Source: a virus
Reading direction: 5' to 3' (one strand)
Virus record (IMG/VR): IMGVR_UViG_3300009132_000041
Coordinates: 1 to 23,180 of that record
DNA: 23,180 bases
Part shown: positions 1 through 19,317 of the stretch, in pieces
How positions within the stretch are numbered: the first letter of the stretch is position 1
Layout: each line of letters starts with the position of its first letter
Program-made: the position numbers and the translations under genes
The notes under the pieces: model-generated
Databases searched by the model: none
What the model saw: the letters and a program-made list of their open reading frames with translations, nothing else
What the model was told of the DNA's origin: nothing

Positions 1-3000
1 GAAAATAAAAGCCTCTTAAACCACCTTTTTCTCTGTTGTTATAGTAATCAAAGATATATTCAATATCTTTTAGCTTCTCTTTATTTGCAGAGTCAACAGC
101 TTCTCTATTTTCTGAATGCTGTTCACTAAGTTCTTTGTAGCCTATTAACTCTTTTAAAGCGTCATTAATTATTAAATTACCTTCTTCATCTTTAATTAAA
201 TTACCATTTTTATCTAGATTCATTAAACTGATAAATAAATCTAATTCAGATTCTTTTCCTATCCACTCAACATTTTGTAACTTCTTAATAAGATTTTTTA
301 CTTTTTTACCAAGTTTAAAAAAGCTATTATCTGTTCTTTCTTGTACATTTTTAGGAACACTAAAAGATATATCTTTTATATTGCTATCAGCACCTTTAAT
401 TTTTTGAAGTTCATCAGTATTGTCTTTAAATAACTTTAATAAATCAGAATCCTTAATTTGTATTGTGTTCCACTGTATAAATTGCTCACCATCTTCTTGT
501 AATTCGTTTATATAAGCAAGATTAGGATTATCAAAATGTTCAATTGGGTAACTGCCACGTCTTAATCTAAATAAACCTTTATCTTTTTTGCCGTTAGAAT
601 TTACTTTCCTGGCAGTTTGTATTGCTAATAATCCTAAAGATGTACTAGCTACATTTCTAAAATTAGAATCTCTAATTACTACCCCTCTAAAAGATGAATC
701 TTCTTCAATTTTAGCAATGTTCTTCAAAAACTCTTTTTCAGAGTCTTTTTCAAATTTAACATTTAATAGATCAAACATCTCTAAACCTATATCTTTACTA
801 GCATTTCTAGTAAAAATACCTGCATTACCCCAAATAGCAATCTCTTCTTTGCCTAATCTATCTGTTTGTTTAGCGTCTCCATAAAGTAAATCAGCTATTT
901 CAAACATAGCCCTAAATTTACTATGTCCTACATTTACTGCTGCATAATGCATAGTGCTAAGCATCATTGCAAAAATTACTTCATCTGGTAAATTTCCATC
1001 TTTATCGGAAAACAGTTTAAAAGCTTGTTTTGCTAACAAACCATTTGCAAGATCTGTTTTATTTAAACCTGAGTTAATTGAGTTAAATGCTTTTTTAAAC
1101 TCAATAAATTGACTTACTAGTGCTTTTCCGTAATCACTTTCTGGGTCTACTTTGACTTTTTCTAATAAAAGCTTAATAGATTTTTCATCTAAGTTTTTGT
1201 TTTGATTAAATGAGAAGAAAGAATCACGCTCTATATCTTTAATTCTAAACAAATCAGTAACACTTAATACTGTATCTCTTAGTTTTACAAAAGTATTAGC
1301 AAATTTAGTTAAAAAATGATTTGCTGACTTTTGCCTAAGTTCTGCCGCTATAAAATTTTTAAGCTCTAATTTATGATTAGCAATTTTGTAATTTAATGCA
1401 TCTACTTTATCTTGTATTTCAACTCTGTTAAAAGGTTTTTTATTTTTTAATATATCTTTAAGAGTATCTCTTTCAGCACTTAATTTTTTTATAAGATTTA
1501 TAACTCTAGTTTGATAAGCTTTTAAACGTTTATTACGATTAGCTCTAGTCTGTTCTTTAGGATTTGCTAATTCATCAGTAGATACATCTTCGTCTATAAT
1601 TTCTTCAGCTTCTAAGATAATATCTTCAATTTCTTGAGCAGTCGCGCTATCTGAATCTTTTGCTTCTTTTTTAGGTTTAGCTTTAGGTTTACTTTTAGGC
1701 TTAGCTTTAGGTTTCTTTATATCATCAAGACTTCCTGTATCTTCTTGATTCTTAGCGATAATCTCATCAATCTTCTTTTGATTAGCAATGATAGTATCAT
1801 TTAATTCTTTATTTTTAACCTTGCTATCTACATTATTAAGTACATCAGCGATAACTGCTTTTATATTTTTTGCATATTCAATTTCTAATTCTAATAGTTC
1901 AATTAACACATCACTCTTATCATTGATGTACCAATAATTATTTAAATCAGAATCAGGTAATTGCTTACGGCTTGAATATACTTTATAAGTATTCTTATCT
2001 ACATATACGTCAGTTTTGTTTTTCTTTCTATTAAATATAGCTTTAGCTTTTTGCCAAGCTTTATATTTAAGTTCTAGCCCTAATACAAAATCATCAAATT
2101 GAGTTTCTTCAAATACATTGTTTTTAGCATTTTCTAAATAAGTTTCTAAACCTTTAAATTTACCTTTACGACCATTTGTGATTTCATCATGTACATCTAA
2201 TAAAGTCTTTTTAGCATTTTTCAGTCTTTTCTTTATTGCTCTAAAACTATCTCTAACTTTATTTTTTCTTTCAGCTTGTTCTTTTTGGGCTCCTTGTAAG
2301 CTACCTAATGTAGCATTATCAACTCCTTCGTTTAATATATCTATATCTAAAGAATCAGTATCTTGTTCAGTAGTTGTTTCTTGTTTTTTAGTTTCTTCTT
2401 TATTAAGTTTATTTAATTCACTTACAATATTCTCTCTTAATTGTACAAAACCAGAAAGTTTTACATCAATTTCTTTTAAAGCTTCTTTATCAGTAGTTTC
2501 TTTTTTATCTTTTTGTAATTCTTTTATTGCTTTGTTTATTTCACTATAAGCACCTAATAGATTAGATTTCTTCTCTTCGCGATCTTTAACAGATAAATTA
2601 TCTTCTTTTGTATTAATGTAGTCGTCATAAGCGGCTTGCGCTACATCAATTAAATCAGATAATTCTTCATTAGTCTGTGTTTGAGTTACTTTCTTTTGAA
2701 ACTTAAAACTTCCTATTGCATCTTGTCCTGCTTTAATAACTCCTTTAGTTAAATTAACTTCATTCTTTTTAGTTAAGTTATTAATGAGTACGCCTAATTG
2801 ATTACGCTCTCTATTTAATTCTTTTCTTTTAGCTTTAGATAAATTAGATTGTTTATTATTAAGAATCTTATTGATTGCTCGTATTCTTTTAGCAGCTGAA
2901 ACAATACTACTACGAGCTGGTGCACTTCCTTTTTTAGCTGCTCTTTTTTTACTACCTAATCGATTGATTGCATTATCTCTAGCTTTTTCTATATTAGCAA

Positions 3001-5134
3001 TCTGTACAGCTGCTTTATCTTTAATAGTTTTTATTGCTTTTGCACTTTTTGGTTTTCCACTTGGTGTTGTTTCGTTTATTCTTTGCTCAGTACGTGCATT
3101 TATTCTATCTATTCTTGCTTGAGCACTATCATCAATTCTTTTTGCTCTTTGCTTAATATCAATCTGTACTTCACCTGTATTAAGTTGGTCTAGAGCTTCA
3201 TTAATAGTGTTTTTAGCGTTAATTACGTTTGAGTCGGCTGTACCACCACTTGAGTCTTTTTGTTGAATTTCAAGCCTGTTTAAAGCGTCTGCAAGGAATA
3301 CAGCTTTTTCAATAGGTACTTTCTTAGCATAATCGTCAGGTAAAGTAACACCTAAGTCTTGACTAACTTTTTCTATATCACTAACTGTATCTACTAATAT
3401 CTCTTCAGATTTTTGGTCTTTGCCTCCTGTAGCTTCTTGATTTGTTGCTTCTTGTACTTGTCTTTGGATATTTTGATAAGCTCTAGCAGTAGCTCCTTGA
3501 TCGCCTGCAAGTCTATTTTGTACTTCATTTATTAAATTAGCTCCACCACTTAACGTAGAACCAGGAACTAAACCTGCTACAAAAGAATTTAATAGCCCTG
3601 ACCTAAACTCTGCACTATTCATGTCAGGTAGATGACCTTCTTTAATTAAATCTTGAGTTACTTCTTCTACAATGAACTGTAAAAATTCAGTTGTACCTTC
3701 TTGAGAACCACCAGTTAGAATACCTGCTGCTATACCTTTAGCGTTATCACCTAAATTATTTTTAAGAACTTTATTAAGAGAACTATTAGTTTGACTTTTA
3801 GCAGCTTTACCCATTCCTAATTTACGCATTAGTTTAATAGGATAAAAAGCTTCTAAAGCTCCTGCTATAGTACCACCTGCTAATGAGCCTAATCGTGCTC
3901 TTGAATCTCTTTTACCAGCTGCAGCTACATCTCCATATATACTACCTGTTTCTAAACCTGTAGCACCAAGATAAGCACCAGCTGCTCTACCTGTTTGTAC
4001 GCTAGGTATAAGCGTTTTAGTCATCCAGTTTCTAAATTTACTGCTTGTTGTATTTTTTAATGCACCTTTTACTCCAGCACTAATTGCTTGTTTAGCAACT
4101 AACCCACCTAATCCACCAGTACCTATCATTAATGCAATAGATGGCATAGCTTCACCAAGTAAAGCTCCAAATTTAGATAAAGCTTCATTTGGATTTGACC
4201 AATCTACATCCTCTACTTTAGGAAGTTGTGCTCCATTTGCTTGTGCTTCTTCTAAGTTGCGTAAATACTGTTCAATAAACCAAGTAGCAGTAGCTTCACC
4301 TCTTTTACCTGGTATTGAATCAGCAATTAAAGCTGCCATTCCCCAACCAGTAGCTTGCAACCCATCTATACCTTGGCTTAAACCTTTACCAGCACTTATC
4401 CAAAATCCTTCACCACTATAAGTTTTTTCATTAAAACTTCTTGTAGCTTCTTCTAATTTTTGTACACCATCAATATAAGAATCTACATTATATTGACTAT
4501 AAAACATAGCATTAGTTTTAGGCGTATTCATTACTTCATTAATGATTTTGCCTGTTTCAGGATTACGTACAGTAATTAAAGGTCTACCATAATAGCCTTC
4601 GCCATCCTGGCGGATGTCTACGGCTATTTGACCACTACTAGTATTTTGTCCTTCGAGTAAAAGACGTTTAAATTCTTCAGTTTGTTTAGCTGCCTCTTCA
4701 TTTAACATTCTCTGAGACACCATTGTGTAATCTTTTATGCCATTTCTTTTAGCATAAGATATACGATGTAGATCCCACTTTTTACTACGTTTACTGCCAT
4801 CAGTAGGTTCTATACTTCCAAGATAAGGTATTAGTTCATTATTTTCATCATATTTAGCTGTTTCATATGCATCTAAACTAAATCCTTTGCCACCACCGTA
4901 TAAACGTCCAAAATTACGTAAAGTATCAGCATCTGTGATATCATCAATATTTATATTTTGAGATATAAAGTCATTAGTCTTTTCTTCTGATTTAAGACCT
5001 AACTCTTCTTTTTTACGATTAACTAACTGATCTAAACTTTCAGTTTGTTCTGATAGTACCTTATCTAATACAGTACTTTGTTGATTTGCTAAACTTTGTA
5101 AGTAAGCTTCATCTATGGCGTTATTTGTTGCCAT
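1..5134 (-). CDS. Giant virion protein, candidate N4-type virion RNA polymerase (3' end outside window)
   Basis: The frame is open from the ATG at 5132-5134 through base 1, giving at least 1711 residues. Visible layout: a hydrophilic N terminus; a Gly/Ala-rich, weakly hydrophobic stretch at about residues 315-520 (membrane-insertion type, with EGTTEFLQF near 475); a long Lys/Glu-rich helical region to about 1250 with a KPKA/KPKS repeat at 1141-1156; then a globular part. In that last part, segments near 1385 (MMLSTMHYAAVN) and 1437 (GIFTRNASKDIG), and a long polar helix ending YIFDYYNN followed by GLRGFYF at the window edge, run in the same order as the region before the TxxGR motif of N4 virion RNA polymerase. 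Its position last after portal and capsid is also that of N4 gene 50. It starts 4 nt after the upstream stop with no Shine-Dalgarno. The catalytic motifs would lie beyond base 1, so polymerase identity is inferred. A different giant ejection protein is the alternative. Confidence 0.6.
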   Translation of the reverse strand, partial: MATNNAIDEAYLQSLANQQSTVLDKVLSEQTESLDQLVNRKKEELGLKSEEKTNDFISQNINIDDITDADTLRNFGRLYGGGKGFSLDAYETAKYDENNELIPYLGSIEPTDGSKRSKKWDLHRISYAKRNGIKDYTMVSQRMLNEEAAKQTEEFKRLLLEGQNTSSGQIAVDIRQDGEGYYGRPLITVRNPETGKIINEVMNTPKTNAMFYSQYNVDSYIDGVQKLEEATRSFNEKTYSGEGFWISAGKGLSQGIDGLQATGWGMAALIADSIPGKRGEATATWFIEQYLRNLEEAQANGAQLPKVEDVDWSNPNEALSKFGALLGEAMPSIALMIGTGGLGGLVAKQAISAGVKGALKNTTSSKFRNWMTKTLIPSVQTGRAAGAYLGATGLETGSIYGDVAAAGKRDSRARLGSLAGGTIAGALEAFYPIKLMRKLGMGKAAKSQTNSSLNKVLKNNLGDNAKGIAAGILTGGSQEGTTEFLQFIVEEVTQDLIKEGHLPDMNSAEFRSGLLNSFVAGLVPGSTLSGGANLINEVQNRLAGDQGATARAYQNIQRQVQEATNQEATGGKDQKSEEILVDTVSDIEKVSQDLGVTLPDDYAKKVPIEKAVFLADALNRLEIQQKDSSGGTADSNVINAKNTINEALDQLNTGEVQIDIKQRAKRIDDSAQARIDRINARTEQRINETTPSGKPKSAKAIKTIKDKAAVQIANIEKARDNAINRLGSKKRAAKKGSAPARSSIVSAAKRIRAINKILNNKQSNLSKAKRKELNRERNQLGVLINNLTKKNEVNLTKGVIKAGQDAIGSFKFQKKVTQTQTNEELSDLIDVAQAAYDDYINTKEDNLSVKDREEKKSNLLGAYSEINKAIKELQKDKKETTDKEALKEIDVKLSGFVQLRENIVSELNKLNKEETKKQETTTEQDTDSLDIDILNEGVDNATLGSLQGAQKEQAERKNKVRDSFRAIKKRLKNAKKTLLDVHDEITNGRKGKFKGLETYLENAKNNVFEETQFDDFVLGLELKYKAWQKAKAIFNRKKNKTDVYVDKNTYKVYSSRKQLPDSDLNNYWYINDKSDVLIELLELEIEYAKNIKAVIADVLNNVDSKVKNKELNDTIIANQKKIDEIIAKNQEDTGSLDDIKKPKAKPKSKPKAKPKKEAKDSDSATAQEIEDIILEAEEIIDEDVSTDELANPKEQTRANRNKRLKAYQTRVINLIKKLSAERDTLKDILKNKKPFNRVEIQDKVDALNYKIANHKLELKNFIAAELRQKSANHFLTKFANTFVKLRDTVLSVTDLFRIKDIERDSFFSFNQNKNLDEKSIKLLLEKVKVDPESDYGKALVSQFIEFKKAFNSINSGLNKTDLANGLLAKQAFKLFSDKDGNLPDEVIFAMMLSTMHYAAVNVGHSKFRAMFEIADLLYGDAKQTDRLGKEEIAIWGNAGIFTRNASKDIGLEMFDLLNVKFEKDSEKEFLKNIAKIEEDSSFRGVVIRDSNFRNVASTSLGLLAIQTARKVNSNGKKDKGLFRLRRGSYPIEHFDNPNLAYINELQEDGEQFIQWNTIQIKDSDLLKLFKDNTDELQKIKGADSNIKDISFSVPKNVQERTDNSFFKLGKKVKNLIKKLQNVEWIGKESELDLFISLMNLDKNGNLIKDEEGNLIINDALKELIGYKELSEQHSENREAVDSANKEKLKDIEYIFDYYNNREKGGLRGFYF
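1667..1714 (-). repeat. Coding tandem repeat, Lys-Pro-Lys-Ala/Ser x4
   Basis: Four 12-nt units inside the giant gene encode KPKA, KPKS, KPKA and KPKK (residues about 1141-1156). It lies in the Lys/Glu-rich linker ahead of the proposed polymerase part. It is basic and probably unstructured, so a flexible hinge or nucleic-acid contact is possible, but nothing more specific can be read from it. Confidence 0.85.
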
Positions 5135-5138
5135 TTGT

Positions 5139-6272
5139 TTATTTATTTAAGTCACGGTTTTGTATTTCTTCTCTTTCTTTAATGAAATCCATATAACCGC
5201 TACCAGGACCTGTATACCAGCCACCATCCCACTCACCACCGTAACCATATTTTCTTAAATCTTCTTTGTTACTTACATCTCCAAAGATTGTTTCAGCGCT
5301 TTTTTCTTTAAAATCATTTTTATCAATTTTTTGTCCTTCGTTTTCATTCCAAATTTTAAAGAATACTTTTTCTAATTGACCTTTATCAAGTTTAGGATTA
5401 TTTTCAACAAATTCATCAAAATATAAACTTTTAACAATAGATTTACTTGTTATAAATTTACTTGCATCTTTACCTTGTTCTAACGCTTCATTACGTTTAA
5501 CTTGCATAAGTTTTTCATATAAAGCATCTTGAGAACCTTTTTCAGCAAAATCCCACTGTTTACCGTCTAATGTAAATGTCATGTCATCATCAAATGGTCT
5601 ATCTGCCCATTCAATAGTTTGTGTATTAAATGCTTTATTTAATTCATCACGACTAATTTCACTTCCATATTTATCTAAGAATTTATTTGAATAACGTACA
5701 ATTTGTTTTTGTTCTTTTTCACCAAAGTCACTTCCAAAAGGTGTCCAAGCATTCATCCATAAAAATCCACCTTGATTTTCATCTTCTAAATCTTCAAATA
5801 ATTCATTTTTAGGGTCACCAGGATTTTGTGCATCAGATGCACTTATGTTAGATGAACTGCTACTACTCCTTGTTGATGTTTTTGGCACTGCTGCCAATTC
5901 CATAGCATCTTCATGCTCTATTCCTTGCATTAATTTATTAAAATAATGTTGAGTAGCTAATTGTTTTTCATAAGCAGCTTGTTCTCTATCAGGAGCACCT
6001 AACTCATAATTAGTTTTATTAACTTGATCTAAATTTAACCAAGATTGATTAGCTGCACCAATCATAGCATCACGTTCTTCTTGACTACCAGCATTCATTA
6101 AATCAGCTACAAAAGCATCTGTTTCACTTTTTTGTCTATCGTCAACGTATCCTGATATAGCTTCTTGTATGCCTGTACCTGCTTCACCAATTTGTCGAGC
6201 TGATTGGTTCATTGAATTTAGAATCCCTGAAGGATTCATAGGAGCTATGTTTTTCCAAGTTACTGCAGCCAT
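5139..6272 (-). CDS. Probable internal virion (ejection) protein, 377 aa
   Basis: The ATG at 6270-6272 has a good ribosome site (AGGAG, 7 nt upstream). The product is soluble, polar and mostly helical, with no signal peptide or membrane segment. The N terminus (VTWKNIAPMNPSG, then a helical stretch with AISGYVDDRQKSETDAF) resembles the start of ejection-type proteins in podoviruses, as I recall them. A Ser-rich linker (SSSSSS at about 137-142) separates it from a C-terminal part rich in Trp, Asp and Lys. It lies immediately before the giant gene (4 nt gap), the position of N4 gene 51, and may be ejected with the giant protein. The function is inferred from position; no catalytic motif is seen. 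Confidence 0.6.
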   Translation of the reverse strand: MAAVTWKNIAPMNPSGILNSMNQSARQIGEAGTGIQEAISGYVDDRQKSETDAFVADLMNAGSQEERDAMIGAANQSWLNLDQVNKTNYELGAPDREQAAYEKQLATQHYFNKLMQGIEHEDAMELAAVPKTSTRSSSSSSNISASDAQNPGDPKNELFEDLEDENQGGFLWMNAWTPFGSDFGEKEQKQIVRYSNKFLDKYGSEISRDELNKAFNTQTIEWADRPFDDDMTFTLDGKQWDFAEKGSQDALYEKLMQVKRNEALEQGKDASKFITSKSIVKSLYFDEFVENNPKLDKGQLEKVFFKIWNENEGQKIDKNDFKEKSAETIFGDVSNKEDLRKYGYGGEWDGGWYTGPGSGYMDFIKEREEIQNRDLNK

Positions 6273-6285
6273 GTTATTCTCCTAA

Positions 6286-6765
6286 TTAACCTACGTAATT
6301 ATCTGAAGTAGGCATACCTTGTGCAGCTGCCCAATCATTTCTTCTTTGAATCATATTGTTAGTTACTTTAGCTTGGTCTGCGTAATTACGCTCCCATTGG
6401 TCTTTCATTGTATCGTAAGCATCTCTCTGTAGACCTATGTTTTTTAATGCAGCCCATCCAGATGCTAATTGACCTAATCCACTTATAGCACTTCCAAAAG
6501 CATTCATGTTATCAGCAGTAAAGTATTTACCTAAACCTGAACCTGAAGGATTCAAAACTGTTCTATCAAGATTATTTGAAAAATTGTAACCACTATTATT
6601 TAATAAAGCTCGTTGTACATCTTGACCACCAAAACCCATGTCCATACCTGCATTACCAAAACTAGGAATCCCATCAAATGTAGCAGCTCCTGAATTATTA
6701 AAGCCTTGAACTTTATTTACATTTCCATATATAGAAGGGTATTGTTCTTCCCAATTAATTGCCAT
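6286..6765 (-). CDS. Small virion structural protein, 159 aa
   Basis: The start has a good ribosome site (GGAGAG, 5 nt before ATG). The first half is rich in Asn, Gly and Ser and low in predicted structure. The second half is helical: a Gly/Ala hydrophobic segment (AISGLGQLASGWAALKNIG, about 92-110) followed by a polar amphipathic helix with DAYDTMKDQWERNYADQ. This layout, with a small hydrophobic helix and an amphipathic tail, fits a podovirus internal or ejected protein. It sits between the 1022-aa and 377-aa genes, about where N4 gene 52 lies. No named family is recognised with certainty. Confidence 0.55.
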   Translation of the reverse strand: MAINWEEQYPSIYGNVNKVQGFNNSGAATFDGIPSFGNAGMDMGFGGQDVQRALLNNSGYNFSNNLDRTVLNPSGSGLGKYFTADNMNAFGSAISGLGQLASGWAALKNIGLQRDAYDTMKDQWERNYADQAKVTNNMIQRRNDWAAAQGMPTSDNYVG

Positions 6766-6817: not shown

Positions 6818-6847
6818 ATTATAGCCTTGTATAGTTCTTTTTATTAA
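6818..6847 (-). promoter_or_regulatory. Weak sigma70-like promoter candidate in a 78-bp gap
   Basis: Reading leftward, TTAATA (6842-6847), 18 nt, then a perfect TATAAT (6818-6823) lie in the gap between the 1022-aa and 159-aa genes. It could give separate transcription of the 159-aa, 377-aa and giant genes. The -35 matches only 4 of 6 consensus bases, and such sequences arise often by chance in AT-rich DNA. The rest of the gap holds the AGAGAAT ribosome site and a 12-codon open frame not considered a gene. Confidence 0.25.
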
Positions 6848-9800
6848 GTCTGCATTACTTGAGTTTCATATAAAACATCCCAAGTATTATCATAATTGTA
6901 ATCTTCAAATCCTAAAACATGGAAATTGTTATAGTAAGCTAAGTATTCTGTAGGCATCATAGGATTAATAGTAGATTGCATATTTACATTAACTAAGTTA
7001 CTTAAATGTCTTATAGTGTTAGGACTATATTCTTCATTTAATTCAGCTAATTGGTCTTCTAAACTCTCTTGTCTTTCTTTTTCTGCATTCCATTCAAGTG
7101 TTAAATCTTCTTGTAAGCCTTCTACTGTAGTTTCTATTACTGTTGATATTAAATCAGCTGTATTACCTATTAAAGTTGCTACATCTTCAAATGCCCTAAA
7201 GTTTATTCCTTTTCCACCACTAACTGTATATCCAATAAAGATAGCTACTGCAAATGCTAATTCAGGACTTACTTCTTTAGCAATAGTAATAATGATCTTT
7301 TCTATAACTAAATTAATTACTATTTGTTTAATCATAGCTGCAATAGCTTGAGCTGCAGCAAACTGACCTGATATGATTGCCATTAAGAATAATACAACTT
7401 GTACTATTTTTAATAACCCTGACCATACAGGTTGTTCAATTATTTGTACATCAGCTACATATAACGATATATGCGCACTTGCTACAAACAAACTAGACAC
7501 ATGGTCATTAGGTAAGGTTTTAATAACTTCGTATGAAAACGGTATCATCAAACCAGTAGGGTCAGTTAAATCAAAGTTAACCATCTTAAACTTACTAGTT
7601 TGTGAATCAATTACTCGTAACATACTTTTAGGTGAGTGCACAGTGTATGTGTTCATACCGTTAACTACATTTTGATAGTAAGTAAATGATGTACCTACAG
7701 TAGTAGGTTCGTTAGCTTTACTAATCTTTTTTACTCCAGATGTAATTGATAATGGTGTTAATACACAAAGTCCTGCACTACCATTTCCACCATCATTTCC
7801 ACTTTGTCCACCTGCACCTCCACCCCCAATACTAACTACAACATAATCAGTAGAATTAGCTAATGTGTGATTTACAGTATAGTAAGCGCCTCTATTGCCT
7901 CCTGCTCCAGAATCATCTTGATAGAACCATCCACCATCGTCACCAGCTCCTGCTCCACCTGCTGAATAACCTGAAGCATGACCACCAGCTGAATCATTAT
8001 AGTTTTGTCCTCCACTTCCTGAAAATGAGGAATGAGCTCCTGAAGGTACTCCATTGCTGCCAGGACCACCAAAATTATCTCCAGGATCTCCAACAGAAGT
8101 TTCACCCATACTATTTCCTCCTCCTCCGCTTCCACCTGAAGCAGAATAAGTGTTTAATAGTGTGCCTCCTGCATTATATACTCTTGCGTAAGTTGTTCCT
8201 CCACTATGTCCATTACTACCACTACCTCCTCTTTCAGCACTACCTCCACCACCTCCACCACCAGATATTTCGATTTTTAACGTTGCAGAAGTAGCAACTG
8301 GGTAATAAGTCGTATTGTTTGTTATTACTTGAGTAGTAGGAGTAGGTACACGTTCATATATTTCAGATGGTTTAACTTCGCCAGAAGTACTAATACTATT
8401 GTCTGAATTTATTATTGTTCCTGAAAAACTAATTCCTTGTGTAGGTTGCATCCAATTGGCTGCTTCCGAAGAATAAGAAGATTCTTGAGTAAGAGTACCT
8501 GCAATAAACGCTGCTAACTCAGTAGCATTAGAAACAAAATAACCTACGTTATAGCTTTTTATACCTGATGAAACGTAATAAGTACTTAATAAATTATTGC
8601 TACTATCAAATCTGCTTGCGTCTGAATAATATTTATCATATATATCTGAACCAGCACCTGCACTATTAATCTGTGCTACAGTGTAATTAGCATATGTAAT
8701 GTAAGCCCAGGTAAATGCTAACTTATAATCACCTTGTGTTACAAGAATAGTATTATAAGGTTTGTCATCCGAGCTTGGTGTACTATCATAAATAGCTTTA
8801 GTTACACCTTGACCAGGGAATAACGTACTTAAAAATCTAAAGCCATAATTCATCGCTATTTGTGATGTATCCCAGACTCTAACACCAAAATTTAAATAAA
8901 CATGGTCTACTTTATTTTGATAGTTAGCAATGTTAGTAGCAGCAACATCTGCCATAACTTCGTCAATAATATTTTCAGCGTCTAAACCTACAGTATCAGC
9001 TAATCCTATTATGCTATCGCGTTTACTAGTACTTTGTCCTGAAGCATTAAAATTAGTATTATTTAAACGTAAAGGTATTGCAGGCAATACACTCAGTGTT
9101 TCTGTACCAGTAGTAGTAATTTGAGTATTTGGATCATCTAAACCGCTATAAGTACCAGCACCTACTTTATATACAAATAATTTATTTACGCTAGGAGCAC
9201 TGTCTAAATAGTAATTTACTATGTAATGTAGTCCCGTAGGTTTGCTAGGTATATTAAATGCAGTAAAGTTTGCTAAAGGACTTCCTGTACGTAATGTGTA
9301 ATCATTACTACTACTGTTATATACAGAATTAGCAACGTTAACAGTGTAACTAGTTCCACTATGTGTAAATGTACTAGTCTCGTGTACATATGCTTTATTT
9401 TCTTGAAGCCAATATTTTTGCCAAGGGTTTACAAACAATGTACCTAATTTAGCATTAGATATTGTGCACGGAGCGCTATTAAGAGTAGTTAACACAGAAT
9501 CGACTTCATCATAGTCGACAGTCATTACATTTCCTTTTAGAGTTGGAAAGTCTTCAAAATAATCACCATCATCAATATACTTGATAAATTTTCTAATGTT
9601 TTGTTTGCCATTTTGAAATAGTGTAGCAAATCTTAAAGCTTCAGCTATATCTTGTCCTTGAGTAATAGCTTTTACAACAGTTTCTGCAGAAGCTTTTTTA
9701 TCAGGGTCTGCAAATAAAGCTTGGTTATGTATTTCAAATAGTTCTACATCATCACTATCTGTTTCACCATCTTCATATCCTAATAGATTAGCAACAGGAG

Positions 9801-9912
9801 ATAGTACTGCATCTATAACACCTACTACAGCATCGACAATAGTATCTACGACATCAACGATTGCATCGACAATGTCTTCAATAGCATCTTCAATTACATC
9901 ACATAAACCCAT
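6844..9912 (-). CDS. Large virion protein with glycine-rich insert, 1022 aa
   Basis: The N terminus (residues about 4-38) is an amphipathic helix of Ile/Val/Ala with Asp or Glu every 3-4 positions. Residues about 50-545 are a Thr/Ser/Asn/Tyr-rich region likely to be beta structure. Residues about 549-720 are a glycine-rich domain with many GGGG and GGxG runs, like the Gly-rich domains of phage fibre proteins. A second beta part follows. Residues about 825-900 are strongly hydrophobic with possible membrane helices (VVLFLMAIISG, FAVAIFIGYTVSGG). A coiled-coil-like stretch and an aromatic C terminus close the protein. Membrane-active parts plus its place before the ejection-type genes suggest a channel-forming or tail-associated virion protein. 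It starts 2 nt after the previous stop without a Shine-Dalgarno, so coupled translation is likely. No enzyme motif is seen. Confidence 0.65.
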   Translation of the reverse strand: MGLCDVIEDAIEDIVDAIVDVVDTIVDAVVGVIDAVLSPVANLLGYEDGETDSDDVELFEIHNQALFADPDKKASAETVVKAITQGQDIAEALRFATLFQNGKQNIRKFIKYIDDGDYFEDFPTLKGNVMTVDYDEVDSVLTTLNSAPCTISNAKLGTLFVNPWQKYWLQENKAYVHETSTFTHSGTSYTVNVANSVYNSSSNDYTLRTGSPLANFTAFNIPSKPTGLHYIVNYYLDSAPSVNKLFVYKVGAGTYSGLDDPNTQITTTGTETLSVLPAIPLRLNNTNFNASGQSTSKRDSIIGLADTVGLDAENIIDEVMADVAATNIANYQNKVDHVYLNFGVRVWDTSQIAMNYGFRFLSTLFPGQGVTKAIYDSTPSSDDKPYNTILVTQGDYKLAFTWAYITYANYTVAQINSAGAGSDIYDKYYSDASRFDSSNNLLSTYYVSSGIKSYNVGYFVSNATELAAFIAGTLTQESSYSSEAANWMQPTQGISFSGTIINSDNSISTSGEVKPSEIYERVPTPTTQVITNNTTYYPVATSATLKIEISGGGGGGGSAERGGSGSNGHSGGTTYARVYNAGGTLLNTYSASGGSGGGGNSMGETSVGDPGDNFGGPGSNGVPSGAHSSFSGSGGQNYNDSAGGHASGYSAGGAGAGDDGGWFYQDDSGAGGNRGAYYTVNHTLANSTDYVVVSIGGGGAGGQSGNDGGNGSAGLCVLTPLSITSGVKKISKANEPTTVGTSFTYYQNVVNGMNTYTVHSPKSMLRVIDSQTSKFKMVNFDLTDPTGLMIPFSYEVIKTLPNDHVSSLFVASAHISLYVADVQIIEQPVWSGLLKIVQVVLFLMAIISGQFAAAQAIAAMIKQIVINLVIEKIIITIAKEVSPELAFAVAIFIGYTVSGGKGINFRAFEDVATLIGNTADLISTVIETTVEGLQEDLTLEWNAEKERQESLEDQLAELNEEYSPNTIRHLSNLVNVNMQSTINPMMPTEYLAYYNNFHVLGFEDYNYDNTWDVLYETQVMQT

Positions 9913-12526: not shown

Positions 12527-13019
12527 CTTCATCCTCTGGCATAGGTACTAAATCAGTTCTAACTTCCCATGCTCGTTTAGCTTCTTCACCAATCAAGCCA
12601 TCAATAGGACAGGGTGTACCTGCATCCATCATCGCTTGCCATACATCTTTATCTTGGCACATTATAGATACAGCGGCTACTTTCATACCCATATCATATA
12701 ATCTACCTGCTTTTTTTAATCTAAGACAATTTGCTTCGGTGTATGTAGCACCTAAGCTTAAAGATAATATCTGTGTGCCTAAAGCACCACTAGAAGATAT
12801 CGTACACAAATCTGAATTGTTACCACCTACATTAGGAGATATAGCTGAAGGTGGTGGAGACTTAACTGTAGTCTCATTTGTACCTGTAGTTGTTACAGTA
12901 GACGTAGTATTTTGTGTTATTGAACTTTCATCTACTGCCATTACAGGCAATACAAAGATAACCCAAAAACACGCAACAATACCTAAAGCTATAACATTGT
13001 TGCGCAATCTGTTAGACAT
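12447..13019 (-). CDS. Exported phage protein with four to five Cys, 190 aa
   Basis: The N terminus is basic, then hydrophobic (ALGIVACFWVIFVLPVMA), ending in a signal-peptidase-like site before VDESS. A Thr/Ser/Pro-rich linker follows, then a compact domain with SDLCTIS, ANCLRLKKAGRLYDMGMKVAA, IMCQDKDVW and GTPCPIDG. Its spaced Cys suggest disulfides in the periplasm. I recall this Cys pattern from uncharacterised marine phage proteins. The C terminus is hydrophobic (MGATAAAFIFF). The start shares TAATG with the previous stop. The last 80 nt also encode the signal peptide of the next gene in another frame. The function is unknown. Confidence 0.65.
   Translation of the reverse strand: MSNRLRNNVIALGIVACFWVIFVLPVMAVDESSITQNTTSTVTTTGTNETTVKSPPPSAISPNVGGNNSDLCTISSSGALGTQILSLSLGATYTEANCLRLKKAGRLYDMGMKVAAVSIMCQDKDVWQAMMDAGTPCPIDGLIGEEAKRAWEVRTDLVPMPEDEDELTAQEKRDKVLSIMGATAAAFIFF
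12533..12537 (-). promoter_or_regulatory. Ribosome binding site deciding the start at 12526
   Basis: AGAGG on the minus strand lies 6 nt before the ATG at 12524-12526 and directly abuts the upstream ATG at 12530-12532. Spacing therefore favours the second ATG. The site lies inside the coding frame of the preceding 190-aa gene, so initiation needs ribosomes on already translated mRNA. Confidence 0.55.
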
Positions 13020-13549
13020 TACCCTGTAGGTTCTGCGTTAGCAATTTGAGCATTTAGATCAGTTCCTACTCCTCCAGAATTAAGAGCAGTAACTGTTGTT
13101 ACTGGTGTACCAGCTACATTAGTATTAATAGCCCAAGCATCTAATAAAGTTTTAAGATACTTCTGGTCAGCATTCCACTTAAATCCTTTAGCTTGTTCAG
13201 CTTTTAATGTAATGTCTTTACCCATTACACTATTAGCATTAGGTGTAGTGTTACCTGTTACAAGAGTTTGAGCAAATTCAGTTGTTTGTTTTTGCGTTAA
13301 CAAAGCAACTTCTGCATTTGTTTTTTCTTGTCCTATTGTATATGCTACTGATTGTTGTAGTGCTGATTGCATTGCTCCCAAGTAAACTGTTGCAAAATCT
13401 GAACCTGTTATTCTACCTAACTGATATTGTGCTTCTAAGTGTGTAGTAACAGCTTCCATCAGATCATCAAATACACCAGTACCTGTGACTACGTTATTAG
13501 TAACTGTTAAGCCACTGCCTTGTGTTAAGTTTGCTTGGGTTAATGCCAT
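13019..13549 (-). CDS. Helical virion structural protein, 176 aa
   Basis: The Thr/Gly-rich N terminus (VTGTGVFDDLMEAVTTHLEAQ) leads into a helical core with YQLGRITGSDFATVYLGAMQ and a Gln/Thr-rich helix. After a linker comes a C-terminal helix with KYLKTLLDAWAINTN. I recognise the GVFDxLMxxVxxHLxxQYxxGRIxGSDxATVYLG pattern from structural genes of marine podoviruses, downstream of the capsid gene, though I know no assigned function. There is no signal peptide, unlike the five genes that follow. The ribosome site is GTAGGA, overlapping the stop of the previous gene. Confidence 0.65.
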   Translation of the reverse strand: MALTQANLTQGSGLTVTNNVVTGTGVFDDLMEAVTTHLEAQYQLGRITGSDFATVYLGAMQSALQQSVAYTIGQEKTNAEVALLTQKQTTEFAQTLVTGNTTPNANSVMGKDITLKAEQAKGFKWNADQKYLKTLLDAWAINTNVAGTPVTTVTALNSGGVGTDLNAQIANAEPTG

Positions 13550-13553
13550 AATA

Positions 13554-14171
13554 TTATCCTACTGATCCTGTTGCTTTTTGTTTAACACGTAACTTGTCAA
13601 TTTCTTCTGGTGTTAATGGAGGTAACACTTCAACATTGTATGCTTTAATATTTTTAGGCTCCATAACTTCTTGACCATTACGAGTTGTTCTTGCAAAGAT
13701 TTGGCATTCTGCTGCTTTAAGATGATTATATAAAATCTTAGGTATATGCCAACCTTCATCATTGTTATACGGAATATATTTTTTAACAGCTTGACCATCA
13801 TTAATAACATTACTACCTACTGTAAATATATCACCTACAGCATCTACTTTTAATGGATCATTTGGTCTAACTATAACTCTAATTAAACTTAATCCTTCTG
13901 CAGCTTGTAAACCTTCTAACTCAATGCCGTTATAAGTGTAATTATCTATCATATCATCAGTAAGAATAGTAACTCCCATTTCAGCAGCTATTTCTTCATC
14001 TGTTTTAGCAGTTGATTGTTTTGTATTCATAGTTATATTTATTTCATCGCTATTATTAATATTTTCTAGTGCTTGCACTAACTTTTCTCTTTTACTGTTA
14101 AAGTGCATATTTACACCGTGATTACGTAACTCATCACTAATTTGTTTGGATGTCATTTCGTCTATGTTCAT
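13554..14171 (-). CDS. Accessory head protein with SAP-like N terminus, 205 aa
   Basis: Start chosen at 14169-14171, with AGGAG 5 nt upstream; an in-frame ATG at 14201 would begin inside the hairpin loop and arm and lacks a ribosome site. Residues 1-36 (DEMTSKQISDELRNHG, then FNSKREKLVQAL) have the two-helix pattern of SAP or HeH domains, which bind DNA. A flexible Asn/Thr linker leads to a second domain with LIRVIVRPNDP, DIFTVGSN and KKYIPYNNDEGWHIPK, ending VEVLPPLTPEEIDKL. That C-terminal part matches what I recall of proteins encoded just after N4-type capsid genes. It is likely a capsid-associated or decoration protein, perhaps contacting packaged DNA; this is inference. Confidence 0.6.
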   Translation of the reverse strand: MNIDEMTSKQISDELRNHGVNMHFNSKREKLVQALENINNSDEINITMNTKQSTAKTDEEIAAEMGVTILTDDMIDNYTYNGIELEGLQAAEGLSLIRVIVRPNDPLKVDAVGDIFTVGSNVINDGQAVKKYIPYNNDEGWHIPKILYNHLKAAECQIFARTTRNGQEVMEPKNIKAYNVEVLPPLTPEEIDKLRVKQKATGSVG

Positions 14172-14176
14172 AATAT

Positions 14177-14181
14177 CTCCT
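14177..14181 (-). promoter_or_regulatory. Ribosome binding site deciding the start at 14171
   Basis: AGGAG followed by ATATT and the ATG at 14171. It fixes the start of the 205-aa gene downstream of the hairpin rather than at the longer in-frame ATG at 14201. Confidence 0.8.
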
Positions 14182-14188
14182 ATATTAA

Positions 14189-14221
14189 GTCTTCCCCACA
14201 TACGTAGTATGTGAGGAAGAC
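14189..14221 (-). terminator. Strong hairpin after the capsid gene
   Basis: The two 15-nt arms (GTCTTCCTCACATAC and GTATGTGGGGAAGAC on the minus strand) pair completely except for one G-U wobble, around a 3-nt loop TAC. The hairpin begins 8 nt after the capsid stop codon. What follows is TTAATATAGG, not a T run, so it is not a classical intrinsic terminator. It may act as a partial terminator, an RNA 3' stabiliser or a processing site that keeps capsid mRNA abundant relative to downstream genes. Confidence 0.7.
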
Positions 14222-14237
14222 AAGCTTAATTAAGCTT
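14222..14237. repeat. 16-bp perfect palindrome overlapping the capsid stop
   Basis: AAGCTTAATTAAGCTT is its own reverse complement. It covers the last capsid codons and the stop, and directly abuts the hairpin at 14189-14221. It could form a second short stem in RNA or be a protein-binding site in DNA. In AT-rich DNA some palindromes arise by chance, but this one sits exactly at an operon joint. Confidence 0.75.
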
Positions 14238-15516
14238 TTTTACACCAAATGATTCCTAGACGCTCAGGACGTAGAGCCATGAACCCATAGTACCACTTGA
14301 TTGAGTAAAAACCCTTTTCACCGTAAGGGTCGTTCACGTCAGCAGTCTCTTTACCTGGCTTCTTGTGAGTAGTAGTGAACTTAAGGCTCTTACCATCAGT
14401 TTGGAAACCGATAGTAGTAAATGAACCGTCACCTACACAAAGCATAGGGTAAATGTCTGCATTAGATGCACCCGCACCTGAATCATACTGCATTTCAGGA
14501 ACTACAACAAAACGGAACTGGTCTACTGAACCAATCTCACCGTTAAGGATTGTAGAAGCGTCAGCGTATTTCTCTACACCAACAAATCCTGAACCAACAC
14601 CTGAACCAGATATATCAGTCATCTTACGTACCATTGGAATCAAATCTGGACCAATGTACATAACACGTCCACCGTTAACAGTTTTAGTATCTGTCATACG
14701 AGAACCTGAAATAATCTTAGTTTGCTTAGGTGTCTTGTTGTTATCTAGCGCAATAGACAATGTCATCAAGTCATTGTAAGTTGCTACAGCATTAACGTTA
14801 GCTTTTGCTGCTCCACCAATGAAATAAGCAGTACCGCTAGAAGTAGCAGTATTGATTAGATCTTTCTGCAATTGTGCTTCAGTCATTTCTGTTGCACCAA
14901 CCATCATCTCTTCAGTGATGTGAGACAACAACTCAGAGTCTGAATCAAAATCTAGAGACTCTTGAGTGTACTCAGTGAAGAAACCTTGCTTGATAAGTGA
15001 ACCAGTAATTTGTGTACGCTTGAAACCTACACGGTTAACTCTTCCACCATTCTCAGTTAATGCTGGTAGACGATCAGCGATTACACCAACATCTTTTGAT
15101 GAACCGTAAAGGTTACCATACATTTGCTTAGTACTACCACCAGTACCAGCTGCAGTAGTTGCATTAGCTTGAGTTGCATAATAACCAGCATGAGTTGCAG
15201 TTGCTGCTGTCCAACCAGTACCACCTGATTGTAATGTACCTGCTTTATCCCAAGCCATGAACTTAGTACTAGTTTGAATTAGACCGTCAGCATCAATACC
15301 TTGGTCTGTTGTATTCAAATCATCTAGTAATGGTTGATATACATCTTGCTTGATTGTCTTACCATGATGCTTAGGCATAGCCCTAACATCTGCCAATGGC
15401 ATAAAGTACTGAATGTCACGTACTTTAATGAGCGCTTTCTTAAAATAAAAGTCAGTGCGCGCTTGTGCACCTACATTACTGGCGCCATTTGCGCCTGTGC
15501 CGTATTCTAAAGCCAT
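14230..15516 (-). CDS. Major capsid protein, N4-gp56 family
   Basis: This builds the icosahedral head shell. At 428 aa it is close to the N4 capsid protein (about 400 aa). Family signatures are near the N terminus: [16 protein letters not shown] (23-38), [10 protein letters not shown] (47-56) and [17 protein letters not shown] (62-78). It ends with a beta-rich, Gly-containing C-terminal part. It lies directly after the scaffold-like gene and has the strongest ribosome site in the window (AGGAG, 6 nt before ATG). By eye its codons contain more C and G at third positions than its neighbours, as expected of a very highly expressed gene. A strong hairpin follows the stop. Identification is from recognised motifs; no alignment was run. 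Confidence 0.85.
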
Positions 15517-15552: not shown

Positions 15553-16773
15553 CTATACATCGGCTAACTTCATAAATTCTTCGTCAGTCATACCTAAGTA
15601 ATTAGTTCCAACTGATTCAGTTTTGCCTGCAGTCTTTCTTGTTCCTGCTGCAGCTTTACGTTTTTGTTTTACAACAGCAGGGTCCTTTGCTTTAGCCTTC
15701 GGTACAGATGCAGGAGGAGGTACAACAGATTCCTGTTGACTTTGTAGTGTTCCTTGAGACTGTAAGTGTTCTGCTACTTGTCTATAAGCAACAACATCAG
15801 GTACATTTAATCGTCCTAATGCACGTTCAGTATCAACAACTGATTGAACTTTATCAAAGACTCCGTTAAATACGTGGTCATTAATAATAGATATAATCTC
15901 TGGATTATCTGATATTAGATTTTTACTTTCGTTATCCCACTCTTTAGCTAAAATGTTTATAGTTTTATCAAAAGATGGGGTATCTCTAATATCATCAATT
16001 GCCTGATTTATCTTAAATTCTTTATCAGATACACCATAGTTATTAGGTTTATATGTTGTTTCCTCATCAGTATCTATATCTAACGGATCAATGCCACTTT
16101 CTTTTATAAGCTGAGCAATTGCTTTAGGGTCTTTTTTAGAAATATCAATTAGATTGTTAAGTTTACTTTGTTCTAACAATCCTTCTTTTTCTAACATACT
16201 TACTATCTTAAGATTAGGACTTAATCTTTTCATCTTATTATGATAGTCAGCTCCTTTTTGCATTAACGCTATTGCATCGTCAATATTATCGACTTGCATC
16301 ATTCGTTTGCTAGCTTTAAATGGTGCCATTATCCGCTTATATGCTGCTTCGTAATCAATTTCAGCTTGAGAAGTATCCTTCTCGTTTTTAGCTGCATTGG
16401 TATCTTCAGTAGCATCTGTATCTTCCGACTCTAACTCTATAGCATCTTCTAATGTTTCGTCTTCTAGTTGAGTATCCTCATCTAGGTCAGCTACTTCATC
16501 TTCTAATATCTCTTCATCAGATTCTTCCGTATTACTTTCAGACTCATCCGTTTCCTCATAGGGGTCGACCCCATCAGGAGTTACTTCTTCGTCTTCACTT
16601 GTTACCTCTTCAGAAGTTTGCTCTTCTTCAGAAGTATCAATTTCTTCAGTGTTTTCTTGAGCTTTTGTTTCTTCTGCTTCTTCCGCTGCAATTAATTGAG
16701 CTTCAAGTTCACCTAAATCTTGTTTTAGGAATTCTTCATCATCCATTCCTAGAGGACTATTTACTTCAGCCAT
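15553..16773 (-). CDS. Scaffold-like head assembly protein, 406 aa
   Basis: The first third (about residues 11-140) is extremely rich in Asp, Glu, Ser and Thr. The middle (about 140-345) is a helical region with KRIMAPFKASKRMMQVDN and DDAIALMQKGADYHNKMK. A Gln/Pro/Ala linker and a basic Lys/Arg/Ala tail (about 355-385) follow. The motif LGMDDEEFLK at 8-17 recurs as LGMTDEEFMK at 393-402. An acidic helical protein with a basic tail, between portal and capsid genes, fits a scaffold that is lost or retained on maturation; N4 gene 57 has this place. The ribosome site is AGGAGG, and the start overlaps the previous gene by 8 nt. A tape-measure label in some annotations of this family is the alternative. 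Confidence 0.7.
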   Translation of the reverse strand: MAEVNSPLGMDDEEFLKQDLGELEAQLIAAEEAEETKAQENTEEIDTSEEEQTSEEVTSEDEEVTPDGVDPYEETDESESNTEESDEEILEDEVADLDEDTQLEDETLEDAIELESEDTDATEDTNAAKNEKDTSQAEIDYEAAYKRIMAPFKASKRMMQVDNIDDAIALMQKGADYHNKMKRLSPNLKIVSMLEKEGLLEQSKLNNLIDISKKDPKAIAQLIKESGIDPLDIDTDEETTYKPNNYGVSDKEFKINQAIDDIRDTPSFDKTINILAKEWDNESKNLISDNPEIISIINDHVFNGVFDKVQSVVDTERALGRLNVPDVVAYRQVAEHLQSQGTLQSQQESVVPPPASVPKAKAKDPAVVKQKRKAAAGTRKTAGKTESVGTNYLGMTDEEFMKLADV

Positions 16774-17110
16774 TGCTTAAGTCCTCCTGTAATATTTGAG
16801 TTCTAGCATCTTCATCTTCTTTATAAGCTTGTTCTGCTTGTGTACCTCTAGTCAGTACACTATCAAAGAAATTACTTAATGCTCCAATTCCATATATCAT
16901 ATTATCTATAACAGCTTGTTGTTCTTTATTTAAAGAACTGGCTTTTGCCATAACTAATCTAGCTGCTTCTTCTTTGAAATAGTAATCTAGTATGACTTTT
17001 TTAAATTCTCTATTTTTAAAAAGTTTTACGCAACTATTTTTGACTTCGATAAAATGCTTAGCTTGCTGCATATTATCTTCTAACTCTTGCAATTGTTCTT
17101 CTGTGCTCAT
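16766..17110 (-). CDS. Small helical head-assembly protein, 114 aa
   Basis: An all-helical, charged protein with EELEDNMQQAKHFIEVKNS-type heptads, then LFKNREFKKVILDYYFKEEAARLV (with the conserved-looking FKKVIxDYYFxEE) and a final acidic helix. No signal peptide or membrane segment is seen. I recall similar short proteins between portal and scaffold genes of N4-like and marine podoviruses, role unknown. It is the first gene after the extended -10 promoter candidate, has an AGAGGA ribosome site, and overlaps the scaffold-like gene by 8 nt, so the two are probably translated together. Confidence 0.6.
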   Translation of the reverse strand: MSTEEQLQELEDNMQQAKHFIEVKNSCVKLFKNREFKKVILDYYFKEEAARLVMAKASSLNKEQQAVIDNMIYGIGALSNFFDSVLTRGTQAEQAYKEDEDARTQILQEDLSNG

Positions 17111-17187: not shown

Positions 17188-19317
17188 TTACTGCCGATTT
17201 AACATTGGATCGTTAATTATTGCATCTGCAAATTTATTATCCATTGTATTTTGTTGATCTACTTTTTTCATATTTTCTTCATGTTGTCTGCCAACTCCAG
17301 ACTCTTGTTCAACAAAATTCAAGTCTTCTAAATCAGACTTACTATTTAAGTTTCTAGATTTAGATATTTCTGTTTGTGTCTTAGCTTTCTTGTATTCTAC
17401 ATCTACTGCATTCTCAGCTGCTTTTGCACTTTCATTTTGTATTTGAGCTTGTAGTAATTGCAATTCAAGTTGTGCTTTTTGTTCAGCCATTGGATTAGGT
17501 TGTGGCTGATATTCTTTAATTTGTTTTGCTAAATCAGGCATTTTACGTAATCTAGCAATATCAGATAATATTATCTGTGACATAGATGGGTCCATATTAT
17601 TACCCATTGTTTGTAACATAAAAGATAGTTCTTGTGCTTTTTCGTTATCAGCCTCAGCTGTAGATATATTTAATTTAATATCATACATACCACCTAAGTC
17701 TTCACGATTAATAGCAACAAACTCTTCATTAGTTACTCTTATTATTTCTTGGTCAGATAAAAACTCTGCATTCATAGATATAATCTTACGACCAATTTGA
17801 TTAATACCGTCTGCTAATCTTCTAAGTATTCCTAACTCACGTTTAGACGCTGCATCTAATGCACTTCTAATACCAGTAGCTGTATTACCTAATGCCGAGC
17901 CACTAATACCACTATTAAATGCTTTAACACCTGTCAAAGACTCAGCTTCATTGTTTTGAAGATTAAGCATGTTAAGAGCACTGTTAGGTATTTCAGGATA
18001 AGTATCCATATGAAATGCTTGTCTAGGGTCTACATTAGAATTAAACTTATAATCAGCTCCTTGTTCAAATTTACGAGCATTAGTAACATCTAATGCATCT
18101 TTACGAATACCCATTTGACCATTAGCAGACCTACCAATAATATCAATCATACCTCGTGTTACAGCACCAATAATCTTTTGATTATCTTCTAATAATGCAC
18201 CATCAGGTTCTCCGTATATATGTCTACGTACAGGTAAATATTGAACTGCTACAAAAGGTAACTTTTTATCAGGAAATGGATTACTTTCCATCCTAATTAG
18301 TACATCACCTACCCACGTAGCAATAAATGGTTCTACTTCACCAGTATCATTAATGTCCCAGTATCCCCAATATTCATAAACAATAATCTTTTTACGTGGA
18401 TCATCTTTAAACTTAAAGTTAGTTTCATCTTCTAAATTATGGTCTGGTTGTGCTAATGGGGCAGCATTTTCTAAAATAACATGTTCTAGATTTGAGTATC
18501 TACCATCTTTTTTAAGTTCAGCCATAGATGTTTCAAAACTATAAATAATAAAATTAGCTTTATCTAAATCACCTAAACAAGTCGGGTCAATGATTACATT
18601 GTTATAATCACATACTTCTAAATCAGGTTGATTTTTAAGAACTTTTATTTGTTCTTCTATGTGAGAGCCTACTTGTACACCCATCATTGGAACACCTGTT
18701 TCCATAGTTAATCTATGAGCTTCTTGTATTTCTGGTGCAATATCTTGTTTATATTTTTGAGGGTCAGCTTCCATCATTTGATGTAGCTGTTCATGCATTT
18801 GTGCTGATTCTGGTGATGGCTGATATTCAAAATCAGGAACTTCAACTTCTATAGTCTCATCTTCGTATGTCCATCCTACTTTAACAATAACAGTACCTTC
18901 ATCTACAGCTGTACGCACATACTCATCAATAAAAGCAGTTTTATCTATTTTGCAATTGATTTGATAATTTAATAATAAACCATTTTGTATAGCAGACTCT
19001 TTATCTTCAAATGTCATTGGAGACGTATTGAATAAATCATCTGTTGATAAAAAAGGTTCACTTAATGCAGCATAACGCCATTCAGCTTGTTTTCTAATAA
19101 GTTTAGGGACAATTTTTGATCTACCTTTCTTATTATTAATTGTTTGCTCACCATTTAAAGCACTTATCCAATTATCAACATCTAATACATGTGATGTATG
19201 TGATGACTGAGCTTCATCATAATCAGCTTTAAGTTCTAATAAATCAGGTGGATTCTTCCAATCTACAAGCTTCTTTGGTTCACTTAAATCTACATCTAAA
19301 TCATGTTGTTTTGCCAT
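17188..19317 (-). CDS. Portal protein, N4 gp59 / P22-type
   Basis: The portal forms the dodecameric ring at the head vertex through which DNA enters and leaves and on which the tail is built. At 709 aa it is close to N4 gp59 (about 760 aa). Signature stretches are GRSKIVPKLIRKQAEW (65-80) with ALSEPFLSTDDLF, then VRTAVDEGTVIVKVGW (about 137-152), a YEYWGYWD segment, and a helical crown region with GDxGxRxA-type sequence TATGIRSALDAASKREL. The C terminus is a long Gln/Ala/Lys-rich helix (AEQKAQLELQLLQAQ), as in barrel-bearing portals. It shares TAATG with the previous stop; GAGGAAGAAG precedes the ATG. It is the first recognisable gene of the head module. Confidence 0.85.
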   Translation of the reverse strand: MAKQHDLDVDLSEPKKLVDWKNPPDLLELKADYDEAQSSHTSHVLDVDNWISALNGEQTINNKKGRSKIVPKLIRKQAEWRYAALSEPFLSTDDLFNTSPMTFEDKESAIQNGLLLNYQINCKIDKTAFIDEYVRTAVDEGTVIVKVGWTYEDETIEVEVPDFEYQPSPESAQMHEQLHQMMEADPQKYKQDIAPEIQEAHRLTMETGVPMMGVQVGSHIEEQIKVLKNQPDLEVCDYNNVIIDPTCLGDLDKANFIIYSFETSMAELKKDGRYSNLEHVILENAAPLAQPDHNLEDETNFKFKDDPRKKIIVYEYWGYWDINDTGEVEPFIATWVGDVLIRMESNPFPDKKLPFVAVQYLPVRRHIYGEPDGALLEDNQKIIGAVTRGMIDIIGRSANGQMGIRKDALDVTNARKFEQGADYKFNSNVDPRQAFHMDTYPEIPNSALNMLNLQNNEAESLTGVKAFNSGISGSALGNTATGIRSALDAASKRELGILRRLADGINQIGRKIISMNAEFLSDQEIIRVTNEEFVAINREDLGGMYDIKLNISTAEADNEKAQELSFMLQTMGNNMDPSMSQIILSDIARLRKMPDLAKQIKEYQPQPNPMAEQKAQLELQLLQAQIQNESAKAAENAVDVEYKKAKTQTEISKSRNLNSKSDLEDLNFVEQESGVGRQHEENMKKVDQQNTMDNKFADAIINDPMLNRQ

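Follow-up and report, generated by a model that had tools for sequence, protein, structure and literature searches.

What protein does a giant gene encode when it runs off the end of a viral contig? The DNA analysed here (the window, 23,180 bases, a complete IMG/VR record) contains such a gene at its left edge, an ORF at 2..5134 on the minus strand that begins with ATG, encodes 1,711 residues and is still open where the contig stops. An earlier note, made from the sequence alone, had described at least 1711 open residues at this edge and proposed an N4-type virion RNA polymerase (vRNAP), cut just ahead of its catalytic motifs. Polymerase motifs are not visible within the window, as the phrog_2206 search gave no match in it and nothing significant was obtained for the ORF against Pfam and PHROGs (best phrog_35800, E 0.05, and GAT, E 0.52); tblastn of the ORF against phages also returned nothing significant.

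The complete gene in other records

As the window is the entire IMG/VR record, the gene was followed in other records. A peptide-pattern scan of IMG/VR yielded four loci, among them L002 (IMGVR_UViG_3300013113_000097, 52,310 bases; record G001), and four IMG/VR scans together gave 22 distinct contigs. L002 differs from the window by 41 mismatches in 23,150 ungapped positions (99.8% identity), 14 of which fall within the ORF (5,134 bases). The complete gene (L002:10001-21961) encodes 3,986 residues, 2,275 of them past the window cut, and the final residue of the window, 1711, lies 9 residues short of the predicted active-site arginine R1720; both the giant size and the position of the break just before the catalytic motifs are thus borne out. 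The related ORFs encode 4,016 residues in L003, at least 4,632 in L005 and 2,641 in L004, where the contig ends the ORF.

Identity as an N4-type virion RNA polymerase

The full L002 protein scores 1,111 bits against phrog_2206, 'virion RNA polymerase'. Searched against PDB sequences, it matches three distinct sequences up to E 10 (E 6.3e-35 to 5.5e-31), all named virion DNA-directed RNA polymerase and including the N4 gp50 entries 9pnr and 9pnq. The Pfam N4 RNAP helical domain scores 24.1 bits in this protein (cut-off 27) and 27.0 bits, equal to the cut-off, in that of L005. From about residue 1364 onward, a profile of four environmental proteins aligns with six cultured N4-like vRNAPs (five filed under Schitoviridae and one, At2, under Caudoviricetes only) at probability 100 and E 8e-136. 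Residues 1634-3986 matched 464 phage records in tblastn, and 16 of the 30 rows listed carry an RNA polymerase, vRNAP or N4 gp50-like name. Identity is low, 22.7-24.4% in these 30 rows and 13-14% in structural alignments to N4.

The L002 protein contains equivalents of five catalytic residues of N4, namely R1720 (R1421 in N4), D1845 (D1556), K1943 (K1667), Y1951 (Y1675) and D2217 (D1948), of which D1845 belongs to motif A, K1943 and Y1951 to motif B, D2217 to motif C and R1720 to the TxxGR region. All five are identical in the 13 aligned cores (L002 and 12 relatives). The motif A and C aspartates and the motif B lysine expected past the cut are therefore present, while the TxxGR motif named alongside them is retained in its arginine only: the site reads QSQHR in L002 and TRVGR in N4, and the arginine alone is constant in 13/13 rows. 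The missing literal motif does not refute a polymerase, since in the six cultured N4-like vRNAPs the arginine is invariant but the threonine is not among the invariant columns either. With a polymerase active site in the full gene of the near-identical L002, the guess of the earlier note was right, and it is very nearly certain that the window ORF covers the N-terminal 43% of an N4-type virion RNA polymerase from a schitovirus-type phage.

The replaced Thr and Gly of TxxGR, together with the splitting of the gene into several ORFs in G019 and G020, could also be read as decay of the polymerase part in a vRNAP retained for ejection only. We regard this as highly improbable, because the ORF is intact in L002 and L003, and in L005 up to the contig end, and because the five catalytic residues are kept in 13/13 cores while identity to the L002 core drops to 18-34%.

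A polymerase is also supported by the predicted fold. An AlphaFold2 model of residues 1284-2385 of the L002 protein, computed from an alignment with 11 relatives, reached pLDDT 82.0 and pTM 0.83; its first 428 residues are the part encoded in the window. The ten best Foldseek rows in the PDB are all N4 vRNAP (best 3c46_B, E 2.9e-23; TM 0.60-0.65), with yeast mitochondrial and T7 RNAP coming next, from E 6.4e-12. VIA-align likewise ranks N4 mini-vRNAP first among the PDB entries (Z 26.7, rmsd 4.5, 914 residues), its first seven entries being all N4. By this model, the L002 core has the N4 mini-vRNAP fold and not a plain T7 or mitochondrial RNAP fold. The giant size, the Gly/Ala N-terminal part and the ejection-gene neighbours would suit any ejection protein, including a different giant ejection or polyvalent protein without polymerase (of the transglycosylase-bearing gp16 type or the DarB type), and there are further giant ORFs that have a Dda-like helicase but lack a phrog_2206 match in their records (L066, L068 and L069). 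Such a protein is nevertheless a most unlikely product of this gene, as the near-identical full gene has the polymerase domain, all catalytic residues and the predicted N4 fold, and as no lysozyme or transglycosylase family occurs among the Pfam matches of the window ORF or the L002 protein up to E 1.

The N4-type vRNAP reading also holds for the part of the gene inside the window. The polymerase domain starts here with residues 1284-1711 (2..1285, minus strand), as delimited by profile alignment and the fold model. With the last 453 residues of the window ORF and three homologues as query, hhalign aligned residues 1363-1703 with N4 gp50 1122-1401 (291 columns, probability 97.5, E 7.5e-12). 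Against the score of 107.7, 30 column shuffles reached at most 22.3 and the reversed query 17.0; as these controls are far below it, the earlier reading of the last ~330 residues as ordered like the region preceding TxxGR in N4 is sound. That L002 might be a chimeric assembly, the gene of the window then continuing otherwise, can be put forward because both are metagenome contigs, but it deserves almost no weight, as in L003 and L005 a single ORF encodes this N-terminal domain together with the polymerase, as the ORF of L004, cut by the end of its contig, also includes both, and as the part in the window, taken by itself, aligns to the N4 residues that immediately precede the active-site arginine.

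Gene order and lineage

The vRNAP gene is the last minus-strand gene after those for the portal, gp58/gp57-like proteins, the capsid, gp55/gp54-like proteins and the genes in the places of gp53 to gp51, and its claimed position behind portal and capsid, like that of N4 gene 50, is confirmed. This series, all on the minus strand, comprises the portal gene (gp59-like, 17188..19317; PHROG/Pfam and N4 phmmer matches), a gp58-like gene (16766..17110; weak, E 2.6e-05 for the L002 copy), a gp57-like gene (15553..16773; N4 phmmer match, phrog_2120), the gene for the gp56-like major capsid protein (14230..15516; phrog_1357, N4 phmmer match), a gp55-like gene (13554..14201; E 6.2e-20 for the L002 copy) and a gp54-like tail tube gene (13019..13549; E 1.4e-12 for the L002 copy, phrog_2050). 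The genes in the positions of gp53 (6844..9912; phrog_2220) and gp52 (6286..6765; phrog_33671 and phrog_2646, with no named function) are assigned by place only, and next to the vRNAP gene lies a putative gp51-like ejection protein gene (5139..6272; weak N4 gp51 match, E 5.1e-05 for the L002 copy). The window portal shares 53.9-56.6% identity with those of the 30 phage records listed out of 487 matched.

Phmmer with 29 N4 proteins found 18 matches in G001, an incomplete record, in N4's order: gp59, gp58 (weak), gp57, gp56, gp55, gp54, gp51 (weak) and gp50, and further gp45, gp44, gp43, gp42, gp39, gp25, gp24, gp69, gp15 and gp16. Among these are the portal gp59 (E 8.3e-203), the DNA polymerase gp39 (1.3e-172), gp56 (9.2e-100), TerS gp69 (5.8e-49) and gp50 (4.5e-32); gp33, 34, 37, 41, 52, 53, 61, 64, 65, 67 and 68 gave no phmmer match in this incomplete record. 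TerL is likewise among the proteins without a match in G001, and in the relatives G019 and G005 it is matched at 4e-185 and 2.5e-186, and gp67 weakly at 2.8e-4 and 1.8e-4, respectively. The late genes meet the middle genes at the vRNAP gene, which here as in N4 is convergent with the SSB-side middle genes. In G001, TerS (gp69) is located on the far side of the polymerase II gene, as though the linear N4 map had been opened at another point. The two N4 RNA polymerase II subunits, gp15 and gp16, correspond in the window's virus to a single ORF of 605 residues (L015:13682-15499, minus strand), and to one of 593 residues in both G019 and G005.

Judged by its N4-related DNA polymerase, capsid, portal, TerS and vRNAP, the window's virus is of schitovirus type. 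In the tree of the C-terminal vRNAP domain, eight rows including the window's virus form a clade (100/100) apart from the six cultured phages, and a ten-row clade with G009 and G011 is also supported by 100/100. The polymerase tree agrees (six rows 100/99, eight rows 100/99). Both trees are midpoint-rooted, and in the polymerase tree N4 and others sit on long branches of unsure placement. One scan of genome contigs for a relative as a clue to the host found none. The full-length vRNAP of a divergent, uncultured lineage is what these sequences add, the vRNAP family itself being already known.

The N-terminal domain and the linker

Residues 1-560 (3455..5134, minus strand) constitute an N-terminal domain with Gly/Ala hydrophobic stretches, as delimited by profiles and composition, which is 38-59% identical to that of three relatives. 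Homology of these 560 residues to the six cultured N4-like vRNAPs was not detectable (probability 1.3; in the control comparison probability 1.5, score 30.9). Its hydrophobicity shows moderate peaks only, the highest at about residues 324-355 (4070..4165, minus strand), where the protein may contact the membrane. The N-terminal domain of N4 vRNAP, which is reported to enter membranes (PMC12633501), likewise has Gly/Ala hydrophobic stretches. A short stretch with 'WVNVP' and 'GK' was seen by eye both in the window gene at 19634-21079 (minus strand) and in an insert in the N-terminal domain of L005.

Residues 561-1283 (1286..3454, minus strand) form a Lys-rich, putatively helical linker region, recognised by composition, which has weak similarity to the cultured vRNAPs (score 47.0, probability 28.9 in the hhalign comparison). 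Its Lys content is 14.8%, as against 6.1% in N4 401-1006. Of the earlier statement that the Gly/Ala membrane-type N-terminal part and the long Lys/Glu helix differ from N4, the half concerning the Lys-rich middle therefore stands, while the Gly/Ala character is shared with N4 and does not distinguish the two.

Metallopeptidase-type domains past the polymerase

Local profiles place the domains of the full gene in the order N-terminal domain, polymerase, zincin-type domain MPT2 and C-terminal domain, and in L002 the polymerase core, the C-terminal HExxH domain and the conserved large C-terminal domain lie in one giant chain. MPT2 of L002 contains the motif HELLH at 2922 and a following glutamate at 3006. 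It was found in 16/16 mapped environmental records that reach this part (L002, L003, L005, G005-G009, G011-G014 and G019-G022), and in 2/6 cultured proteins by the same profile. The C1 domain of N4 has the same pattern (HELVH at 2228 with Glu 2310), and this pattern of a following glutamate is matched by N4 and At2 and absent in the other four of the six cultured proteins. An HExxH in N4 vRNAP is reported in PMC12633501.

A second zincin-type domain, MPT1, lies between the polymerase and MPT2 in L002 (HELIH at 2507, Glu 2610). It follows the polymerase in L002 and L005 and precedes it in L004 (aa 1111-1350), from which it appears to have moved within the vRNAP gene; its profile matched none of the remaining 14 mapped records, which include incomplete ones. 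Against the alignment of the cultured C1 regions the profiles gave probabilities of 90.7 (MPT1) and 95.6 (MPT2), against N4 C1 alone 10.9 and 1.2, and against each other 72.5. A model of both HExxH domains is uninformative, as its pLDDT is 53.5 and Foldseek found no match at E <=0.001. The HExxH motif, the following glutamate and the profile matches together suggest that MPT1 and MPT2 are zincin-type. With L005 residues 2624-2929 as query, 100 phage records were matched, 20 of them listed at 24-29% identity; among the matches listed, several Pseudomonas phage proteins are annotated as internal core or ejectosome proteins and two EcP1 rows as vRNAP.

A variable slot and helicases in relatives

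The slot between the polymerase and the C-terminal metallopeptidase-type domain varies in predicted content among the relatives. In L005 it contains a Dda-like SF1 helicase (AAA_30, E 5.8e-19; aa 2926-3425, L005:17801-19300), flanked within one ORF by MPT1 and MPT2. In G005 (L041), from another metagenome, a helicase at aa 229-727 occupies the same slot of an ORF cut by the contig start, and is preceded by an AlkB-like domain (2OG-FeII_Oxy_2, E 3.2e-12). The two helicases are 71% identical in their best segment. The motifs GRGGTGKT, DEVSM, GDNVQL and YVATSR are found in the L005 helicase, and the motif V pattern matched neither copy. The G005 contig lacks the polymerase part of the gene, and polymerase and helicase are seen together in L005 only. 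The L004 ORF breaks off at its contig end within a segment that shares 58.6% identity over 29 residues with the one just ahead of the G005 helicase, for which reason L004 may be a third case. In G014 the helicase is in a separate upstream ORF.

N4 gp37 helicase (phmmer <=1e-3) matches in G005 inside the vRNAP ORF only (5.4e-13), and in G001 and G019 not at all at this threshold; a UvrD-like gene is present in G001, G019 and G005. Similar helicases occur in 155 phage records, and none of the best 40 or of 60 spread rows, two overlapping lists in which several rows carry no annotation, is annotated as vRNAP. Nor did the literature, as searched by titles and abstract openings, yield a report of a helicase fused to vRNAP. 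A helicase in a vRNAP chain is the unusual feature; it is predicted in relatives, from two contigs, of which L005 alone carries the polymerase too. Ten slot, linker and ORF stretches, including the 445-residue slot of L002 itself, have no Pfam match up to E 0.01.

The vRNAP ORFs of the relatives differ in other respects as well. In L075 and L076 (G006 and G007) the slot spans aa ~2872-3839 and 2872-3603, or ~730-970 residues, with no Pfam match to E 0.01. The vRNAP ORFs of L081, L086 and L087 (G012, G021 and G022) have 2,289-2,446 residues, that of G022 being ended by the contig, and that of L083 (G014) has 2,324; in these four the N-terminal domain was sought and not found, and the polymerase and C-terminal domain are present. 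Separate upstream ORFs in G012 and G022 match N-terminal parts of phrog_2206, and rare split vRNAPs are mentioned in PMC10654107. In L084 and L085 (G019 and G020) the gene lies in several ORFs, by sequencing error or decay; the portal gene of G019 is also broken, and TAA stops lie inside its vRNAP match. L066, L068 and L069 are giant ORFs of at least ~3,100 residues that match a Dda-like helicase; two of them contain HExxH, phrog_2206 matches in none of their records, and by these features they are another kind of giant phage protein.

Proposed role in infection

N4 vRNAP is packed in the head, ejected last via a gp51/gp52 channel, acts in the cytoplasm on hairpin promoters and is restrained by its C-terminal domain (PMC12633501). 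By analogy with N4, the head would contain several copies of the enzyme, which would follow the gp51/gp52-like proteins through the tail, remain close to the membrane through their N-terminal domain and begin early-gene transcription at single-stranded hairpin promoters; the second polymerase of the phage and that of the host would take over later. Proteolysis by the zincin-type domains may be a further step.

Hairpins with a stem of at least 5 including at least 2 G/C and a 3-nt loop were sought in L015:15500-17860 (2.4 kb), an early region that may be incomplete, and 0 were found against 1.3 expected from mononucleotide shuffles; the identical scan of the first 5 kb of N4 found 12 against 2.8 expected. 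No promoter-like family was noticed among the repeats in L015:15500-18300. The hairpins of this lineage may have a loop size other than 3 nt.

The vRNAP gene may further be a carrier of injection cargo, its variable slot containing a second zincin-type domain, a zincin-type domain and a helicase, or an AlkB-like domain and a helicase, an idea that we put forward tentatively and judge a little under even. If it is true, the virion would deliver in one chain a polymerase for single-stranded templates and a motor that could make such a template, so that host supercoiling would not be required for early transcription or for DNA entry, and the zincin-type domains may release the cargo by cleavage. 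An uncultured, AT-rich lineage, separate from the cultured schitoviruses of this comparison, carries the N4-type giant polymerase gene. Its full-length sequences, far from N4, show the five catalytic residues, an N4-type core and the C-terminal domain as the constant parts, and the N-terminal domain and the post-polymerase slot as the changing ones.

Comparison with known systems

The phiKMV-like Pseudomonas phages matched by the first zincin-type domain of L005 are of another phage type, and their internal virion proteins share with it a similar domain; these proteins are not known to contain a polymerase. The fusion of vRNAP to one or more metallopeptidases is already known: N4-like RNAP polyvalent proteins, in which the polymerase is fused to at least one zincin-like metallopeptidase, are co-injected with the DNA (Iyer et al. 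2017, PMC5512222). The passages of that paper drawn on here name lysozyme, PBECR and ART fusions to N4-like RNAP, and not helicase or AlkB-like ones. The closest known system is N4 gp50, with which the L002 protein shares the single-subunit core, the catalytic residues, the large C-terminal domain, the place beside the gp51/gp52 genes and a domain with HExxH and a following glutamate (2228 and E2310 in N4; 2922 and E3006 in L002). It differs from N4 gp50 in its length (3,986 residues as against 3,500), in its unrelated-looking N-terminal domain and Lys-rich linker, and in an additional HExxH domain between the polymerase and the C-terminal domain.
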